This document shows positions 4,856 through 46,618 of a DNA stretch of 64,000 bases, piece by piece. The DNA lies in assembly GCF_014202505.1 (NCBI RefSeq), contig NZ_JACHGW010000002.1:310001-374000 (forward strand). Direction: 5' to 3'. The number at the start of each line of letters is the position of its first letter. The stretch's first letter is position 1. Source of the stretch: Armatimonas rosea (lineage in GTDB: Bacteria > Armatimonadota > Armatimonadia > Armatimonadales > Armatimonadaceae). The notes below the pieces were generated by a model. That model was not told the origin of the DNA. It saw only the letters and a program-made list of their open reading frames with translations, and did not search any database. The position numbers and the translations under genes are program-made.

Positions 4856-5992
4856 CTAGCGCTTGTTCTCGTTGAGGTTTGCCCCAAGTGTCTTCTCGGC
4901 GGCGTTGTAGAACGTGTCCTTGTCCTTGATCACAGCCTGCGCGGGGAGGAAGTCGGTGAGGGTCTTGGTGCCGTCTATTTTCTTCACCGCCGTCCCGATT
5001 GCCATGAACTCGATCAGGCCACTGCCCAGGTTGTAGACATAGGTCTTGATCCCCACGACATCGTCGGCCCCGACCAGCTCCGCATCGGCGCGGATGCGGG
5101 TGATGGCGTTCTCCCGCGCCTCGTAGATCAGGGAGCTCAGCTCGTGAATCTCCCCGCGCACCAGAGACTTGAACGCCGATGTAAAGCTCCCCACAAAGCC
5201 GAGGGAGTAGACCGAGACCCCCAGCACGAGCTGGATGGGCTGGTAGCCCATGTGCCAGACATTCCAGAGCTCCTCGTTGGTGAGGTCGCTGGTGATCGGG
5301 GTCTCTTTGTGGCGCGGGTCCAGGTCGGCGTGGCGCGACGCGGTCCCGACCATGACCATCTCCTGCATGCCGTTGAGCGGAAGAATCGTGGTCTGGATGC
5401 CCAGCACCGCGTTGGCCCCGACTGTCCGCGCCTCCTCGGTGATGCGCCAGAGAGCCCGGTGCCGGGTCTCGTTGAAGACATCGGAGAACTCTTTTACCTC
5501 CCCGCGCGCCAGCGAGCGCAGGCCACCGACAATCCCGCCGCCGACCCCGATTGAGTACGCCACATTCCCAAAGACAAACTTCAGCGGCATGAAGCCACAG
5601 TCGAGCTGGCAGTAGAGCTCCTGGCCATCCGCAGAGGTGGAGAAGGCAAGTTTTTCGGACTTGGCACCTTCGTGGTGGATGCAGGAGCCAATCGAGAGAA
5701 ACTCGACATTGCCTGACTGCCAGATGAGCTCGCTGGAGACCCCCGTGATCCCGCTGCCCCCGTGGTGCTCTGCCTCTTTGACCATGCGCTCCAGCGCGGT
5801 CTGGCGGCCCTCGTGGACGATCTGGGTGACCTGCTCGATCTCACCGCCCATCATGGTCTTGAAGCCCGCGCCCACGGAGCCGACAAAGCCCATGGAGTAC
5901 ACACTATTGCCAATCACCAGCTCGCCGGGCGCGAAGCCCTTCTGGTGCAGGCAGTACATCTCGTTGCCGGAGAGCCCGGTCATAATCGCCAT
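4856..5992 (-). CDS. Triple YbjQ/UPF0145 (DUF74) domain protein
   Basis: 378 aa from the ATG at 5992. That ATG is preceded by AGAGGA at a good distance; a GTG 12 codons further upstream is possible. The protein is three tandem copies of a heavy-metal-binding YbjQ-like domain (about residues 5-110, 125-240 and 250-355). Each copy carries the same plan: 'LVIGNSVYSMGFVGS', a stretch like 'GGEIEQVTQIVHEGR..AL.RM..EA', and a glycine-rich 'GA(D/N)AV.GI' strand. YbjQ-type proteins are normally about 105 aa single domains that assemble into pentamers. The copies have diverged, with a cysteine pair in copy 2 (ELYCQLDCGF). The function of the family is not established. The final 20 residues form a charged tail. 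Confidence 0.82.
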   Translation of the reverse strand: MAIMTGLSGNEMYCLHQKGFAPGELVIGNSVYSMGFVGSVGAGFKTMMGGEIEQVTQIVHEGRQTALERMVKEAEHHGGSGITGVSSELIWQSGNVEFLSIGSCIHHEGAKSEKLAFSTSADGQELYCQLDCGFMPLKFVFGNVAYSIGVGGGIVGGLRSLARGEVKEFSDVFNETRHRALWRITEEARTVGANAVLGIQTTILPLNGMQEMVMVGTASRHADLDPRHKETPITSDLTNEELWNVWHMGYQPIQLVLGVSVYSLGFVGSFTSAFKSLVRGEIHELSSLIYEARENAITRIRADAELVGADDVVGIKTYVYNLGSGLIEFMAIGTAVKKIDGTKTLTDFLPAQAVIKDKDTFYNAAEKTLGANLNENKR

Positions 5993-39377: not shown

Positions 39378-40805
39378 CTAGAAACTACTCTCCCGCGTGG
39401 TGAGCGGGCACCAGCGGGTGGTGTGGAAGTGGTGCAGGAGGGTCTTGAGCGCCTCCGGGGACGCCGACCCGAGCTGCTCTAGGGCGATCGTGGCGTGGCC
39501 GCGGACGTAGCGGTTCTGGTCGGTGAGGGCGCTGGCCAGCGCGGGGACGGCGGAGACGGCTTTCTCGCGGAACTTTGCCAGACCGTAGGCGGCATTGAAG
39601 CGCGTCTGGGCGTCGGGGTCTTCAAGCAGGCGTGTCAGCGCGGGCACGGAGAGCTCGGGCTGGCTCTTGATCTGGCCTAAAGCATCCGCGAGCTGGCGCC
39701 TGACAAACGCCGAGGGATCGTCGGTGAGAGGTGTGAGTGCGGGGAGTGCCTCCGCCGCACGTGCTCCCAGATCGCCCAGCGCATAGACCGCATAGCCGCG
39801 TGTGCGCTCGCTCTCCGACGCCAGCGCCTCGGTGAGCGTGGGAAGCGCCGCCGCTCCCGCCACACTCAGCCCGTAGCACGCCGCGCGCCGGAGATCGTCG
39901 CGCTCGCCGTCGTGCAGGAGACCCTCACGCAACACAGCGACGCCCTCCGCACCGAGGCCCCCGAGCGTATAGGCCGCACTCAGCCGCGTCTCCTCCGCGC
40001 TGTCCCAGAGCTCGGTTTTGAGCGCCTCGGGATCGCCCGTGGTCTCCCACGCACTCTCGCCCGCTAGCCAGTGCCACATCTGCCGCCAGAGCGGGCTGCG
40101 AGGATTTTTCGCCAGCTCCGCGCTTAGTGGAATCTCTGCCGACTCACGCTTCCAGTGCGCCTCGCCAGGCATCGGCTCATCGAGGCGCGTGAACTGGAAC
40201 TTGAACATGTAGCGCTCTCTGTCCGTGTGGTTGGGAAACGCCCGGTGCCAGAGGTCGAAGTGGATGAGGATCACGCTCCCCGCCTCGCCCGCCACGGGAA
40301 GCCCGATGCCGTCGGGATCGAGCGCCGCGACTTCAGGGCTCAGCGGCAGGGTCGGCACCCGCGACTCGTAGTACTGGCTCCCGGGGATGGCACCGGTCGG
40401 CCCGATCTCTGCAGGGGCATCTTGCGGGTAGTACATCGCCATGATCCAGCGGGGATGGTGGTCGCGCACCTTGGAGTAGCCCCAGTAGCTATCTTTATGC
40501 CAGCCGCCGCCGTTGCCGCCCGGCCCATTGGGATGCGCAAACCGGTGGACATGCATCACGTACGACGGCCCTAAAAGGCTGGTCAGCGCGCCGCGCACTT
40601 GGGGCGCATCGAAGACCTCCTGCACCTCGGGGATGCGGGGGAGGATATTGTTGCCCGGGTTGCCGTCCTCGGCGAGGATCTTCTTGGTCTTCTCAAAAAC
40701 CTGCTCATGAAACGATGGCGGAAGGTCTACTTTTAACACGCAGTAGCCATTGACAATAAAATCGCGCATCGCTGCATCGTCGAAAAGAAACGCATCCAAA
40801 CCCAT
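39378..40805 (-). CDS. Phytanoyl-CoA dioxygenase fused to HEAT repeats
   Basis: 475 aa from the ATG at 40805, with AAGGAG 9 bases upstream; the longer frame reaching into the ROK intergenic region is not used. Residues 1-250 are a PhyH oxygenase: HxD in 'GGWHKDSYWGYSK', distal His in 'HFDLWHRAFPNHTDRERY' and an Arg near 'KFQFTR'. Residues about 285-465 are at least six HEAT/PBS-lyase-like repeats of about 30 residues ('RLSAAYTLGGLGAEGVAVL', 'RRAACYGLSVAG', 'RGYAVYALGDLG', 'RRQLADALGQI', 'RFNAAYGLAKF', 'RGHATIALEQLG'). The repeats probably form a docking platform. The substrate is unknown. The 73 bases upstream carry no other gene. Confidence 0.85.
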   Translation of the reverse strand: MGLDAFLFDDAAMRDFIVNGYCVLKVDLPPSFHEQVFEKTKKILAEDGNPGNNILPRIPEVQEVFDAPQVRGALTSLLGPSYVMHVHRFAHPNGPGGNGGGWHKDSYWGYSKVRDHHPRWIMAMYYPQDAPAEIGPTGAIPGSQYYESRVPTLPLSPEVAALDPDGIGLPVAGEAGSVILIHFDLWHRAFPNHTDRERYMFKFQFTRLDEPMPGEAHWKRESAEIPLSAELAKNPRSPLWRQMWHWLAGESAWETTGDPEALKTELWDSAEETRLSAAYTLGGLGAEGVAVLREGLLHDGERDDLRRAACYGLSVAGAAALPTLTEALASESERTRGYAVYALGDLGARAAEALPALTPLTDDPSAFVRRQLADALGQIKSQPELSVPALTRLLEDPDAQTRFNAAYGLAKFREKAVSAVPALASALTDQNRYVRGHATIALEQLGSASPEALKTLLHHFHTTRWCPLTTRESSF

Positions 40806-40878
40806 CTGCCCTTGCTCCTTCACGCTTCCCCACCGAAAGCTTGCGGGAATGATAACAGATTCCGCGCTCCGTGTCTGC

Positions 40879-41706
40879 CTATTTCCCACCTTGAAGGGCG
40901 ATACGCGCCGCGCCGTAGGCCACGACAAGCTCTCCTGCAGCTACCCGTTTCAGCGTGCAGGCCTCCCAGAGCTCAGGCAGGCTGTAGGCTTGTGCGGCGC
41001 TCCGGGCCGCGGCTTCGTAGCCGGGAAGTAGAAATGTCCCGCCACCGACCGCCAAGTGCGCTGGGTTGAGGAGGTTGATCACCGCCGCAAGCCCAAGCCC
41101 AAGTGCCCTGCCGCCCTCACAAATCACCGCTTGAAGCTCTGGCTCCTCCGCCCTCGCCGCAAGCTCTGCGGGCGATACGCCACACCGGGCCGCGAGGGCC
41201 GCGCCGCCCGCGAGCAGATCGAGGCGCTGGACACTCCCCTCCCCGGTAAGGGGCAGGTACCCCAGCTCCCCGGCCCAGCCCGTGGCACCACGCAAGGGCA
41301 CTCCCTCCACCAGGAACGCCGCCCCGACCGCGGTGCCTACCAGCACCACCCCCGCCGTCAGCCCCGACTCTGGGTTGGCAAATTCCTCCGCGAGTGCGGC
41401 CGTGAGGTCATTGGTGACCGTGACGGGACAGGCAAGGTCACGGAGGGCTTGGGGAGCGCTCCAGCCCACCAGCGCCGGGAGCACATCGCAGGCCACCACG
41501 CAGCCGCTTGCATCGACCAGACCCGGTACTGCAATTCCAAGCGCCTCGGGCCGCTCGGGCTGGTCCCGCACAAAGGCACGTAGCGCGGCCTCCAGCGCCG
41601 CCGGGGTAAACGCTGGCCCGGTCGCGAGACGCTCCACCCGTGCGCCACAGGCCAAGAGTAGCTTTGTTCCCCCGAGATCAACCCCGACGGATTCTCTGGC
41701 CGTCAT
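40879..41706 (-). CDS. ROK-family sugar kinase-like protein lacking the zinc motif
   Basis: 275 aa actin-like ATPase fold. Phosphate 1 motif 'VGVDLGGTKLLLACG', then 'LGIAVPGLVD', 'VTVTNDLTAALAEEF' with the catalytic Asp, and 'TGWAGELGYLPL'. The signature cysteine cluster of ROK kinases (CxCGxxGCxE) that should follow 'ELGYL' is missing; the region reads 'TGEGSVQRLDLLAGGAALAA' instead. It could be a sugar kinase of a zinc-independent branch or a non-catalytic sensor. No DNA-binding domain. Overlaps the CYTH gene by 4 bases. Confidence 0.82.
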   Translation of the reverse strand: MTARESVGVDLGGTKLLLACGARVERLATGPAFTPAALEAALRAFVRDQPERPEALGIAVPGLVDASGCVVACDVLPALVGWSAPQALRDLACPVTVTNDLTAALAEEFANPESGLTAGVVLVGTAVGAAFLVEGVPLRGATGWAGELGYLPLTGEGSVQRLDLLAGGAALAARCGVSPAELAARAEEPELQAVICEGGRALGLGLAAVINLLNPAHLAVGGGTFLLPGYEAAARSAAQAYSLPELWEACTLKRVAAGELVVAYGAARIALQGGK

Positions 41707-42715: not shown

Positions 42716-43207
42716 CTACTTGGGGGCGAGGGGGGGCGGCATGGCGTCCCAGGCGAGGAGTGCTTTCTCCGTCGCGGGACCGTTCTTCTTCAGCCATGCT
42801 GTCGCTGCCTCGCTCACATCGGTGCCATAGAAGCGGCGGGAGTACACCACCGATCCCCCGACTCTTTTTCGTAGCCGGAACCGCGTGAAGGCGAGCTCTA
42901 GGAACGCATCGGTGGCGAGCAGGGCGACAACCAGGTGTTCCGCGGGCTTGGCCTTGGTCGCAGGCACGGAGCTGGTCTTGAGGACGACGACCTTCGCGGA
43001 CTTGGTTGCTTGGTAGTTGTCCAGGAGCGTGTTTGCTCTCATGGCAAGCCCCTGCGGGTCGGTGACCTTGGGATAGACCACCAGGGTGACCATGTCGATC
43101 CACTTCTCCAGATCCTCTTGGTCTTTGGGCGTGTACTCGTGCTGGTCCCCTTGGCTCCAGCGGTGGAAGTAGGGAACTCCTGCGAGGGAGAAGGAGGGGG
43201 GCTTCAT
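42716..43207 (-). CDS. Hypothetical protein
   Basis: 163 aa, no recognised family. No signal peptide. It has Trp/Tyr-rich N-terminal stretches (GVPYFHRWSQGDQHEYTPKD), a helix-strand pattern ('LEKWIDMVTLVVYPKV'), a strand with 'AEHLVVALLATDAFLELAFTRF' (quoted in part) and a lysine-rich C-terminus. Possibly a compact alpha/beta protein. It starts the two-gene unit with the GNAT gene from a promoter with TATAAT 6 bases before the ATG. Confidence 0.7.
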   Translation of the reverse strand: MKPPSFSLAGVPYFHRWSQGDQHEYTPKDQEDLEKWIDMVTLVVYPKVTDPQGLAMRANTLLDNYQATKSAKVVVLKTSSVPATKAKPAEHLVVALLATDAFLELAFTRFRLRKRVGGSVVYSRRFYGTDVSEAATAWLKKNGPATEKALLAWDAMPPPLAPK

Positions 43208-43225: not shown

Positions 43226-43609
43226 TCATAATTCGTAGAGCTCCAGCGGGAGGCCGTCGGGGTCGGCGAAGAAGACAAAGCGCTTGCTCGTGAGCGCATC
43301 GGTGCGGACTTCCTCGACCGTGATGCCTTGAGACTCCAGAGCGCCCTTACACGCCGCGACATCGTCCACAGCAAACGCCAGGTGCCGCAAGCCCTGTGCC
43401 TCAGGGTACGACGGCCTAGGCGGGGCGCCGGGAAACGAGAACAGCTCGAGCTGTGCGCCATCGGGGAGCGCCAGATCGAGCTTGTAGGAGTTTCGGGCCG
43501 CCCGGAAGTGCTCGCTGACGATCCGCAGGCCCAGGACCTCGGTGTAGAAGCGCTTCGAGACCGCGTAGTCCGAGCAGATGATCGCCGCGTGGTGGATTCC
43601 CTTGAGCAT
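43226..43609 (-). CDS. VOC/glyoxalase-like protein (lactoylglutathione-lyase type)
   Basis: 127 aa from the ATG at 43609. Two betaalphabetabetabeta modules of the vicinal-oxygen-chelate fold. Metal ligands: His in 'LKGIHHAAIICSD', Glu in 'QLELFSFPG', His in 'GLRHLAFAVDD' and Glu in 'DGLPLELYEL'. This matches the 'SMU1112c/YaeR-like' subgroup. The start is favoured over an upstream ATG because TACAAT lies 5 bases before it. Role: probably detoxification or small-molecule chemistry. Confidence 0.88.
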   Translation of the reverse strand: MLKGIHHAAIICSDYAVSKRFYTEVLGLRIVSEHFRAARNSYKLDLALPDGAQLELFSFPGAPPRPSYPEAQGLRHLAFAVDDVAACKGALESQGITVEEVRTDALTSKRFVFFADPDGLPLELYEL

Positions 43610-43614
43610 GGGGG

Positions 43615-43620
43615 ATTGTA
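43615..43620 (-). promoter_or_regulatory. -10 hexamer of a probable leaderless promoter (VOC gene)
   Basis: TACAAT on the minus strand with five C residues between it and the ATG at 43609. No ribosome binding site. Confidence 0.55.
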
Positions 43621-43635
43621 GCACAGGGCTAGTGC

Positions 43636-44046
43636 CTAGTTGTCGCCGCCGCTGTGCGTGGGCTCCAGCAAGTCCCAGAGGTTCCCGTAGAGGTCCTGGA
43701 ACACCGCGACCGTCCCGTAGCTCTCTTGTGTCGGCTCTCGGACAAAGACCACGCCCTTGGCTTTGTAGGCCGCAAAGTCGCGCCAGAAATCGTCGGTGTA
43801 GAGAAAGAGAAAGACCCGGCCACCGGTCTGGTCGCCCACCCGCGCGCGCTGCTGCTCGCTCGTCGCCCGCGCCAGCAAGAGCCCCGATTCCTTGGCTCCG
43901 GGCGGCGCGACCACCACCCAGCGCTTGTCCTGGGCAGGCTGGTAGGTGTCTTCCCGAAGCGTGAAGCCCAGCGTGTCCACATAGAAAGCAAGCGCTTCGT
44001 CGTAGTCACGGACAACCACGGAGACAAGGCCAAGAGACTGTGGCAT
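43636..44046 (-). CDS. VOC-family protein
   Basis: 136 aa vicinal-oxygen-chelate fold, a distant paralogue of the gene at 43226. N-terminal 'LGLVSVVVRDYDEALAFYVD' and 'LGFTLREDTY' are typical, as is the C-terminal 'VAVFQDLYGNLWDLLEPTH'. The first metal His is replaced (SLGLVSVVV), so it may belong to the antibiotic-resistance/glyoxalase-like group that lacks a metal. The gene is followed by the FKBP gene with no gap. Confidence 0.85.
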   Translation of the reverse strand: MPQSLGLVSVVVRDYDEALAFYVDTLGFTLREDTYQPAQDKRWVVVAPPGAKESGLLLARATSEQQRARVGDQTGGRVFLFLYTDDFWRDFAAYKAKGVVFVREPTQESYGTVAVFQDLYGNLWDLLEPTHSGGDN

Positions 44047-44403
44047 TTAAGATGCCTCTTCCCGATCGTCTGTCGTCGCAAGGACGATCTCCGAAGACTT
44101 AATATCAAAAATAAGTGCTGCGTTTGCAGGGACGCTCCCTAGCGCCATGTCACCATAGCACAAATGGGGGCTTGCGCGAAACCGGCGTACTCCGCCCGAA
44201 CGGAGCCCCTCCAATCCGTACCGAAATCCCGCGACAAAGTCCCGGTCGCCCACGGTATACATGGCCTCCTGGTCTTGGACGAGAAAATCCCCGCGACAGA
44301 GCTGAATGTCGTACCGCAGGCGCACACAGTCGCCCCTTTTTAGCTCAGGGCCACTCCCGATGGTCTCTGAGAGGATTTTGATTCCTGACTTTGGCGAGGT
44401 CAT
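44047..44403 (-). CDS. FKBP-type peptidyl-prolyl isomerase
   Basis: 118 aa, ATG overlapping the fusion-gene stop (ATGA). The core matches FKBPs: 'RGDCVRLRYDIQLCRGDFLV', 'YTVGDRDFVAGFRYGLEGLR', 'RFRASPHLCYGDMALG' and 'ALIFDIKSSEIV'. No signal peptide, so cytoplasmic. It may aid folding of the large membrane protein it is coupled to, or act generally. The last gene of the lipid operon. Confidence 0.85.
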   Translation of the reverse strand: MTSPKSGIKILSETIGSGPELKRGDCVRLRYDIQLCRGDFLVQDQEAMYTVGDRDFVAGFRYGLEGLRSGGVRRFRASPHLCYGDMALGSVPANAALIFDIKSSEIVLATTDDREEAS

Positions 44404-46277
44404 GTTTGTTCGCTTTTGTTCAAACCGCTGCAATCGACCGCTCCATGGCTCATAAAGTCCTCCCGTTTGTGCTTCCAGATACTCGCCAGACGATAAAACG
44501 GCTTGCTCGGGTCGAGATGGTGCACGAGATGGAAATTTTGCCCCAGTAGCAGCCAGGTCAGCCAAGGGGAGCTGCGCACCGAGGTCGCCTGGTAGGGTGT
44601 TGTTGCTTGGTGCGGCGCATGAGGAAGCCAGGAGAAGGTCGCCGCTAGCGTAAACAGCGCCAGGCGCGCGGGAAGAATCCAGCCCAGCAACAAGGCACGA
44701 AAGAGAGAGGGGTGGAGCAACCCTGCGCCAACGGCGAGCGCAACATAGACACTTCCGCAAAGCACAAGGTCCGCCCGTTCAAGCCAGGGCCTGGTTGTCC
44801 ATCGTGAAAGGTAGAACCGCAGGTAGCCGATGTCTTGGGTCAGCCAGCGCAGAGGGACGGCCCAGCTTGGTCCCGCTCCGCACCAAAAATCGGGGTCGTC
44901 GGTGGGGACATTGGTGTGCAGGTGGTGCTCGCGGTGGAGGAAGCAATACGGGCGAAACGCTCCTGTCAAGAGTACCGAGCAGAGATGTCCCACGGCTGCA
45001 TTCAGGACTTTCCCCCGAGAGACATTGCCATGCACGGCTTCGTGGATGGGGGTAAACCCGGCGAAGGCGGCCACGAATCCGATTCCCACCGATAGCCATG
45101 CGGGGAGCCAGCCTTGGAAAGCACCGACCACGGCCAGCGCCATCGCGGTGCAGCAAGCGACCGCCAGCAGCGAGATAGGGAGATCGAGAGCGGGCTTTGG
45201 GGACGGTGTTTCGGAAGGCGGGGCCGCTTGTCGCTGTAGCCACTGACGGGCCCAGCGGCCGAGCGCGCGGGCGGCAAACCGCGGAACCCAGCCGTTGGCG
45301 AACGCCATCAAGATGGCACGGATGGTTAAAAAACTGACTTTTCCGCTGGAGACGATGTACACGGGCTCCCACGCGGAAGGCTTCATCTTGTCACGAAAGC
45401 GGTACAGGCCTTCTAGGTTATAGAGCCAGCCCATCGAGCGTGCGCAGACACGCAGCAGCCTTGTGAGCCACACATGATTTTGGGAGTTTTGCTCCGCATC
45501 AAGCCCTGCCAGTGCCACCATTCCTAGGCTCACCACCTCAGCGCCTTCGTCGCGCAGCTGGCACATCACCGCATCCACCAGGGACTCCCCACAACCGGCG
45601 GGCGCCTCGGGGGGGATCATCATGTCTTCAAGAAGCCAGCCATTCCGGCCGTAGATGGGCACGCAGACAGCGAAGCCATGGACAACTCCGTCCGACTCGA
45701 CCACAAAGTAGCGGCGACGTTCCGCGTGCTGAAACAGCTCTAGGGTCACCATAAAACCCATCGGGGGGAGCGCCTTTTGCTCCGCCCACGAGTCGACAAT
45801 CTCTACAAAGCGCTTTCGGAGCGGCGTGCCTGGGGCGACCTCGCCACAATCAATCAGCCGGACGGTAACACCGGCTCGTCTGGCCTTGCTGAGCCGGTTG
45901 CGTAGCTTGCCAGAGCTGCCCAAAACCTCTTGCCACTGCGCCGGATTCCAGACCGCGGCAAGCCCGACCAGCAAGGCATCAAAGGAGCCGCCAAGCCGCT
46001 CAACGAGGGGCCGAGTTACGCCGAAAAAAACGACCTTACGTCCCTTCTTCCTTGCCGCTTCACGAAACGCGCTGGCAACCGCGAGGGTCTCCTCCGAGGC
46101 GCAGAGCGGCCCCCCGACCGCGACCCAGTACCCTCCCCGGTCGGCGTACGCCACCATGGCATCGCCCTTGCTCCACACCGAGAGCCCCGGCTCCAGAACC
46201 ATGAACGAGTGGAGGTTGCGACCGTACTTCGCCAGCGCTTCGAGCAACCGAGCCTGCTGGGGCTCAGACTCCCTCAT
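44400..46277 (-). CDS. DUF2156 (aminoacyl-phospholipid-synthase-like) domain fused to a fatty-acid desaturase
   Basis: 625 aa. Residues 1-310 are the cytoplasmic C-terminal domain of phosphatidylglycerol lysyltransferases (DUF2156, GNAT-like): 'AMVAYADRGGYWVAVGGPLC', 'GSSGKLRNRLSKARRAGVTV', 'FFVVE'-like strand 'RYFVVESDGVVHGFAVCVP', and the classical end 'YNLEGLYRFRDKMKPSAWEP'. The flippase part of MprF is absent. Residues 365-625 are a membrane fatty-acid desaturase or hydroxylase with all three histidine boxes: HEAVHG (412-417), HREHH (448-452) and HLVHH (583-587), flanked by four or more hydrophobic segments. Both halves act on lipids. The fusion is in one continuous frame without internal start. 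The gene overlaps both neighbours by 4 bases. Confidence 0.88.
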   Translation of the reverse strand: MRESEPQQARLLEALAKYGRNLHSFMVLEPGLSVWSKGDAMVAYADRGGYWVAVGGPLCASEETLAVASAFREAARKKGRKVVFFGVTRPLVERLGGSFDALLVGLAAVWNPAQWQEVLGSSGKLRNRLSKARRAGVTVRLIDCGEVAPGTPLRKRFVEIVDSWAEQKALPPMGFMVTLELFQHAERRRYFVVESDGVVHGFAVCVPIYGRNGWLLEDMMIPPEAPAGCGESLVDAVMCQLRDEGAEVVSLGMVALAGLDAEQNSQNHVWLTRLLRVCARSMGWLYNLEGLYRFRDKMKPSAWEPVYIVSSGKVSFLTIRAILMAFANGWVPRFAARALGRWARQWLQRQAAPPSETPSPKPALDLPISLLAVACCTAMALAVVGAFQGWLPAWLSVGIGFVAAFAGFTPIHEAVHGNVSRGKVLNAAVGHLCSVLLTGAFRPYCFLHREHHLHTNVPTDDPDFWCGAGPSWAVPLRWLTQDIGYLRFYLSRWTTRPWLERADLVLCGSVYVALAVGAGLLHPSLFRALLLGWILPARLALFTLAATFSWLPHAPHQATTPYQATSVRSSPWLTWLLLGQNFHLVHHLDPSKPFYRLASIWKHKREDFMSHGAVDCSGLNKSEQT

Positions 46278-46618
46278 GGCTTGCTCTTGGGTGCACGCCC
46301 ATGCGTGACGGACTGCCTACCCCTGAAGATTTCATAGGTGGTAAACCAGCTCCCAAGCGCCGCGAAGATAGGGGATTGGTCGATGCTACGGTGCGTCTTC
46401 TCAAACAGAATGTGGCCTAGATAGGGCGGGCCAAGCTGGAACCAGACGCCCAGGGCAAAGAGGGGGAGGCTCAGAAACCAGGCACCGAGTCCGCAGAAAA
46501 CCAGCGCCGAGAGATTGCTCAAGAAGTGAACCCACCGGTTCAGCGGAGCAGCGTGATCGGGCAGGTAGATACTTTCGTAGAACTCACCAAAGGATCTCCG
46601 AAACTCGCCGCTAGCCAT
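46274..46618 (-). CDS. Mpo1-like / DUF962 membrane protein
   Basis: 114 aa with two hydrophobic helices ('NLSALVFCGLGAWFLSLPLF' region). Motifs shared with Mpo1/DUF962 proteins are 'APLNRWVHFLSN' and 'YLGHILFEKTHRSIDQSP', where the histidines are the iron ligands. In yeast the family member is an Fe-dependent dioxygenase that shortens 2-hydroxy fatty acids by alpha-oxidation. First gene of the three-gene lipid operon, with AGGAGA 9 bases before the ATG. Confidence 0.8.
   Translation of the reverse strand: MASGEFRRSFGEFYESIYLPDHAAPLNRWVHFLSNLSALVFCGLGAWFLSLPLFALGVWFQLGPPYLGHILFEKTHRSIDQSPIFAALGSWFTTYEIFRGRQSVTHGRAPKSKP

Follow-up and report, generated by a model that had tools for sequence, protein, structure and literature searches.

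The window, by which we mean the whole 64,000-nucleotide stretch of Armatimonas rosea DNA analysed here, carries on its minus strand genes for an Mpo1-like protein, a fusion of a DUF2156 domain to a desaturase-fold domain, and an FKBP, which follow one another through successive 4 bp ATGA overlaps of their open reading frames (Table 1). The first-pass annotation of this DNA had described both the overlaps and the 625-residue fusion with its three histidine boxes, and both descriptions hold: the genes lie and overlap as it placed them, the two Pfam domains of the fusion score well above their gathering cut-offs, and HMM searches detected all of the expected domains, which favours the observation.

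Table 1. Features of the Mpo1-like/fusion locus and the adjoining FKBP gene, in window coordinates.
Feature	Position	Strand	Remarks
Mpo1-like (DUF962) small membrane protein, 114 aa	46274..46618	-	First gene of conserved pair; PF06127 E 5.8e-9, over cut-off
DUF2156-desaturase fusion, 625 aa	44400..46277	-	Second gene of pair; PF09924 and PF00487 in one open frame
LPG_synthase_C (dual-GNAT aminoacyl-tRNA:lipid transferase) domain, residues 15-309	45351..46235	-	PF09924 E 6.6e-42
Basic linker, residues about 326-366	45180..45302	-	Least conserved part of fusion; 47% between window and L004
Desaturase-fold membrane di-iron domain, residues 389-613	44439..45113	-	PF00487 E 9.9e-32
ATGA stop/start overlap, Mpo1-like gene/fusion gene	46274..46277	-	Present in all three loci
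FKBP-type peptidyl-prolyl isomerase, 118 aa	44047..44403	-	PF00254 (FKBP_C) E 1.4e-11

When one genome per species was scanned, a full-length fusion, 67% identical to that of the window, emerged in a Pirellula MAG (locus L004), and a whole-genome search recovered a second relative at 56% identity (genome G492, locus L031). Both are planctomycete genomes, G492 belonging to the same family as the Pirellula MAG, and in both the fusion is an uninterrupted frame with the two Pfam domains in the order found in the window. The earlier concern that the frame might be a sequencing artefact or a frameshift fusion is ruled out, because in both of these genomes the fusion occurs as a single frame free of stop codons. 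Third codon positions of the three fusions have drifted to 32-40% identity while protein identity, taken domain by domain, has been kept at 48-72%, which means that purifying selection has maintained the fusions through a long period of divergence. It is unlikely that the Pirellula contig was mis-binned, as the independent genome G492 also has the gene pair and the flanks of L033 show no relation to the window.

In three of three genomes the Mpo1-like gene immediately precedes the fusion on its upstream side, with the identical ATGA overlap, and this pair is the only linked content common to the three neighbourhoods. Neighbourhood comparison showed the FKBP gene to be absent from both other loci (L033 and L031), and among 18 order relatives there was no close FKBP orthologue, the best being about 31-33% identical. 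The gene order of the window thus recurs for the Mpo1-like gene and the fusion in both genomes and for FKBP in neither, which excludes FKBP from the conserved unit and led us to reject it as a member of the pathway. The conserved unit is two genes, followed in the window by unrelated local genes, and the three-gene operon that had been proposed does not survive as a unit, since the directon of the window also runs on past FKBP. A glyoxalase-like gene (43636-44046, minus strand) begins right at the stop of the FKBP gene (TAA then ATG), and the directon continues with gaps of less than 20 nt through a second glyoxalase-like gene, an unassigned gene and a GNAT gene. The two glyoxalase-like genes are tandem members of the glyoxalase/VOC family directly downstream of FKBP (43226-44046, minus strand); a 163-aa open reading frame in the same directon (42716-43207, minus strand) had no Pfam or NCBIfam match. 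In the Pirellula locus, a prokaryotic diacylglycerol kinase gene (5215-5616, plus strand of L004) ends 8 bp upstream of the Mpo1-like gene, a lipid context found at this one locus only; a VanZ-family gene lies further upstream of the kinase. Scans for promoters and terminators gave nothing above chance, PADLOC found no match to anti-phage defence systems, and none of the open reading frames around the pair was recognisable as a carotenoid gene.

The fusion is rare, and its distribution is sporadic and crosses phyla. Among the 291 genomes of the window's phylum that were searched, no other carried the fusion, and none carried the desaturase half at an E-value threshold of 1e-10. The family of the Pirellula MAG, represented by 241 genomes, yielded two with the fusion and one with a DUF2156 protein that lacks the desaturase half, and larger draws from the planctomycete order and class added no fusion. 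These genome searches covered about 1,900 genome slots, a figure in which some genomes recur, and the pattern scan detects close relatives only, so that more members of the fusion family may exist. Carriage by phages or plasmids was considered and rejected: phages gave no match, viral contigs no relatives, and both halves were never found together on a plasmid. The fusions were monophyletic in a tree built from DUF2156 domains (support 99/99), with the window and L004 sequences as sisters inside the clade (95/91). The absence of the fusion and of the desaturase half from other genomes of the phylum rules out vertical inheritance within it and indicates that the pair moved horizontally; the simplest reading is that it was transferred between phyla as a unit, in one direction or the other.

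The N-terminal half of the window fusion matches PF09924 with 144 bits against a cut-off of 27.5. MprF, LpiA and LysX have a homologous dual-GNAT synthase domain, and the key positions of that domain are conserved in the fusion: Y286, G290, L291, K297, W303, E304 and Y307 are invariant across the fusions, two standalone DUF2156 proteins and the MprF of the genome. The architecture differs from theirs in that LPG_synthase_C stands at the N-terminus of the fusion, whereas the synthase domain of MprF is C-terminal, and in that the C-terminus of the fusion is occupied by the desaturase-fold domain. The flippase half of MprF, LPG_synthase_TM (PF03706), had no match in the fusion, and there is no strong transmembrane segment before residue 366, so the first-pass annotation had read this absence correctly. 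The fusion scored 87.5 bits with the MprF equivalog model NF033480, against a cut-off of 600 bits. The genome of the window also encodes a full-length MprF with both LPG_synthase_TM and LPG_synthase_C (L036), as well as a standalone DUF2156 protein (L034), which suggests that the aminoacylation of ordinary lipids is already provided for elsewhere in the genome.

Members of the DUF2156 family aminoacylate the hydroxyls of a range of lipid acceptors, including phosphatidylglycerol (PG) and the glycolipid glucosyl-DAG (PMC11630815), DAG (PMC10580965), and ergosterol (PMC9437257). It is quite improbable, in our estimation, that the DUF2156-like half of the fusion is instead some other GNAT-type acyltransferase, for example one that transfers an acyl group from acyl-CoA or acyl-ACP to an amino acid, with the gene pair making either an N-acyl amino acid or some small lipid that is secreted. 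The tree is compatible with such an enzyme, as the fusion clade groups with standalone DUF2156 proteins and long branches separate it from true MprF proteins; the half also matches Acetyltransf_1 weakly, and no description of a standalone member of the clade turned up in the literature searched. Retention of the invariant LPG_synthase_C positions argues against it, as do matches of the N-terminal half to the synthase domains of solved MprF and LpiA structures, with E-values of 7e-18 to 4e-10.

The C-terminal half matches PF00487 with 111 bits in the window fusion, where the cut-off is 29.7, and its histidine boxes are intact (H412xxxH416, H448xxHH452xH454, LPH553xxH556 and H583xxHH587). Hydrophobic segments lie near residues 366-388, 393-411, 504-522 and 528-546, the first of them just before the domain. 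The curated model that fits best in all three fusions is the CrtR beta-carotene hydroxylase, NF045688, at 130.8, 121.1 and 128.0 bits (E 5e-38 for the window). All three are far below its equivalog cut-off of 475 bits, and the fusion differs from CrtR further in being joined to a DUF2156 domain; lower-scoring models included the L-arginine hydroxylase GntB (45-48 bits), CrtW and DesA/DesB. Plasmid-borne relatives of this half are about 30-37% identical to it and repeat this pattern of scores, with 94-162 bits for the CrtR model. They lie beside NRPS and glycosyltransferase genes in Mycobacterium, beside nitric oxide synthase, aminotransferase and GNAT genes in Nostoc, and beside monooxygenase and other aromatic-degradation-type genes in Novosphingobium. 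Since these relatives combine the same CrtR pattern with non-lipid contexts, CrtR-likeness is best taken as a label for a branch and not for a substrate. No solved structure matched the C-terminal half by sequence, the best identities of the fusion to characterised proteins were low, and an AlphaFold2 model built with two sequences only was uninformative, at a mean pLDDT of 36. By sequence, the CrtR-like hydroxylase branch comes nearest to the C-terminal half, and the label of fatty-acid desaturase goes beyond the evidence. The fatty-acid substrate that the first-pass annotation had suggested is accordingly unsupported, given a best score of 131 bits with CrtR, below 475, and plasmid relatives found outside lipid contexts.

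The main rival reading, though a distinctly unlikely one, is that the DUF2156 half aminoacylates an ordinary lipid such as PG, DAG or a glycolipid, after which the di-iron half hydroxylates or dehydrogenates the amino acid headgroup and not the lipid tail. It would be in keeping with the weak match to GntB, an enzyme which is itself not fused to a transferase, and with the plasmid relatives that adjoin NRPS genes or nitric oxide synthase and aminotransferase genes. A precedent comes from OlsE, an enzyme that adds a hydroxyl to the ornithine part of ornithine lipids (PMC3972451); the likeness is one of function, aminolipid headgroup oxidation, and OlsE also is not fused to a transferase. The score for CrtR is, however, far above that for GntB (131 against 47 bits in the window fusion), and oxidation of the headgroup would leave unexplained the Mpo1-like partner, which has a known relative that acts on 2-hydroxy fatty acids.

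The Mpo1-like proteins of the three loci are 65-73% identical to one another, score 36.4, 37.1 and 30.8 bits against a Pfam cut-off of 24, and share five invariant histidines (22, 31, 69, 76 and 106). Yeast Mpo1 is a 2-hydroxy fatty acid dioxygenase; the partner described here differs from it in being bacterial, 114 aa long and located beside the fusion in all loci found. The linkage of this gene to the fusion in three genomes argues for a common pathway.

The reading that we tentatively favour, while rating it somewhat short of an even chance, is that the two genes of the pair make up a lipid-tailoring cassette that moves horizontally, in which the fusion would be a bifunctional membrane enzyme that oxidises a lipid and aminoacylates it. 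The CrtR-like di-iron half would hydroxylate, or less likely desaturate, a membrane lipid; this half scores best against a hydroxylase model. The cytosolic dual-GNAT half would take an amino acid from aminoacyl-tRNA and esterify a lipid hydroxyl with it, possibly the very hydroxyl that the di-iron half had just introduced. The di-iron domain might also serve as the membrane anchor, as the flippase half does in MprF, a role made plausible by the finding that the isolated catalytic domain of MprF works poorly or not at all in cells, mainly through inefficient substrate uptake from the membrane (PMC8131360). The Mpo1-like protein might then contribute a further iron-dependent oxidation of the same lipid or its acyl chain, possibly a third oxidative step.

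The two halves could, on the other hand, act on different molecules. It is unlikely, we think, that the desaturase-fold half works independently (on acyl chains or carotenoids, for example) or mainly as an anchor, with the fusion merely co-regulating two membrane modifications. Such an arrangement would fit the lower conservation of the C-terminal half in three of three comparisons (60 against 72% identity, 55 against 57% and 48 against 61% for the C- and N-terminal halves, respectively), and related DUF2156 proteins do occur with other partners, among them an alpha/beta hydrolase and a hydrophobic-looking tail. All 11 box histidines (412 and 416; 448, 451, 452 and 454; 553 and 556; 583, 586 and 587) are nevertheless invariant in the three fusions while the non-box histidines 431, 522, 603 and 611 vary, which argues against a mere anchor, and the domain order and the Mpo1-like partner have been kept in two phyla.

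A more specific form of the lipid-tailoring reading, in which one polypeptide would hydroxylate a membrane lipid (an acyl chain, a carotenoid or another polyterpenoid), cap that same hydroxyl with an amino acid taken from aminoacyl-tRNA and pass the product to the Mpo1-like protein for oxidation, seems to us rather unlikely as a complete scheme; it would amount to an undescribed class of aminoacylated lipids made by a cross-phylum, two-gene cassette. The first-pass annotation had likewise suggested an undescribed pathway for a modified membrane lipid, and that suggestion remains plausible, no paper describing a DUF2156-desaturase fusion having turned up in the literature searched, while the parts of it that called on FKBP and on a fatty-acid substrate have fallen away. 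The architecture is new and is built from known enzyme families. In the fungal ergosteryl-3-beta-O-L-aspartate synthase, ErdS, a DUF2156 domain is likewise fused to an enzyme domain of the same pathway (PMC9437257), although there the partner is an aspartyl-tRNA synthetase and not a membrane oxygenase, and the lipid is a sterol. It is by their lipid acceptors that DUF2156 enzymes are known, and new acceptors are still emerging; a synthase joined to an oxygenase in one chain, with a third enzyme of putative oxidative function retained beside it, points directly to a new acceptor. If the proposal is true, a membrane domain with catalytic activity would here have replaced the membrane half of MprF. 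The pair also places a bacterial Mpo1-like protein in the context of a pathway.

Elsewhere in the window, a single open reading frame (39378-40928, minus strand) encodes HEAT repeats behind a phytanoyl-CoA dioxygenase (PhyH) domain. PhyH enzymes yield 2-hydroxyacyl chains, and Mpo1 is known to act on substrates of this kind; the gene lies more than 3 kb beyond the Mpo1-like/fusion pair, and any link to the pair would be conjectural.

Other DUF2156 architectures came to light in the genomes searched. A genome of the same planctomycete family as the Pirellula MAG (G516, locus L032, 4732-6198, minus strand) encodes a 488-aa protein in which a DUF2156 domain is followed by a hydrophobic-looking C-terminal extension that occupies the place of the desaturase domain in the fusion and has no Pfam match. 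Three loci from the phylum of the window (L015, 430-2553; L020, 508-2550; L022, 502-2553) encode a DUF2156 domain and an alpha/beta hydrolase in one protein, and a fourth such combination was recognised by eye in L025. The DUF2156 domains of the first three are related to that of the fusion, from which these proteins differ in having a hydrolase as partner and in carrying it at the N-terminus. An aminoacyl-lipid synthase and a hydrolase are known to be encoded together as an operon, lpiA-acvB (PMC13197417), and by analogy the DUF2156-alpha/beta hydrolase proteins may be single-chain synthase/hydrolase enzymes.
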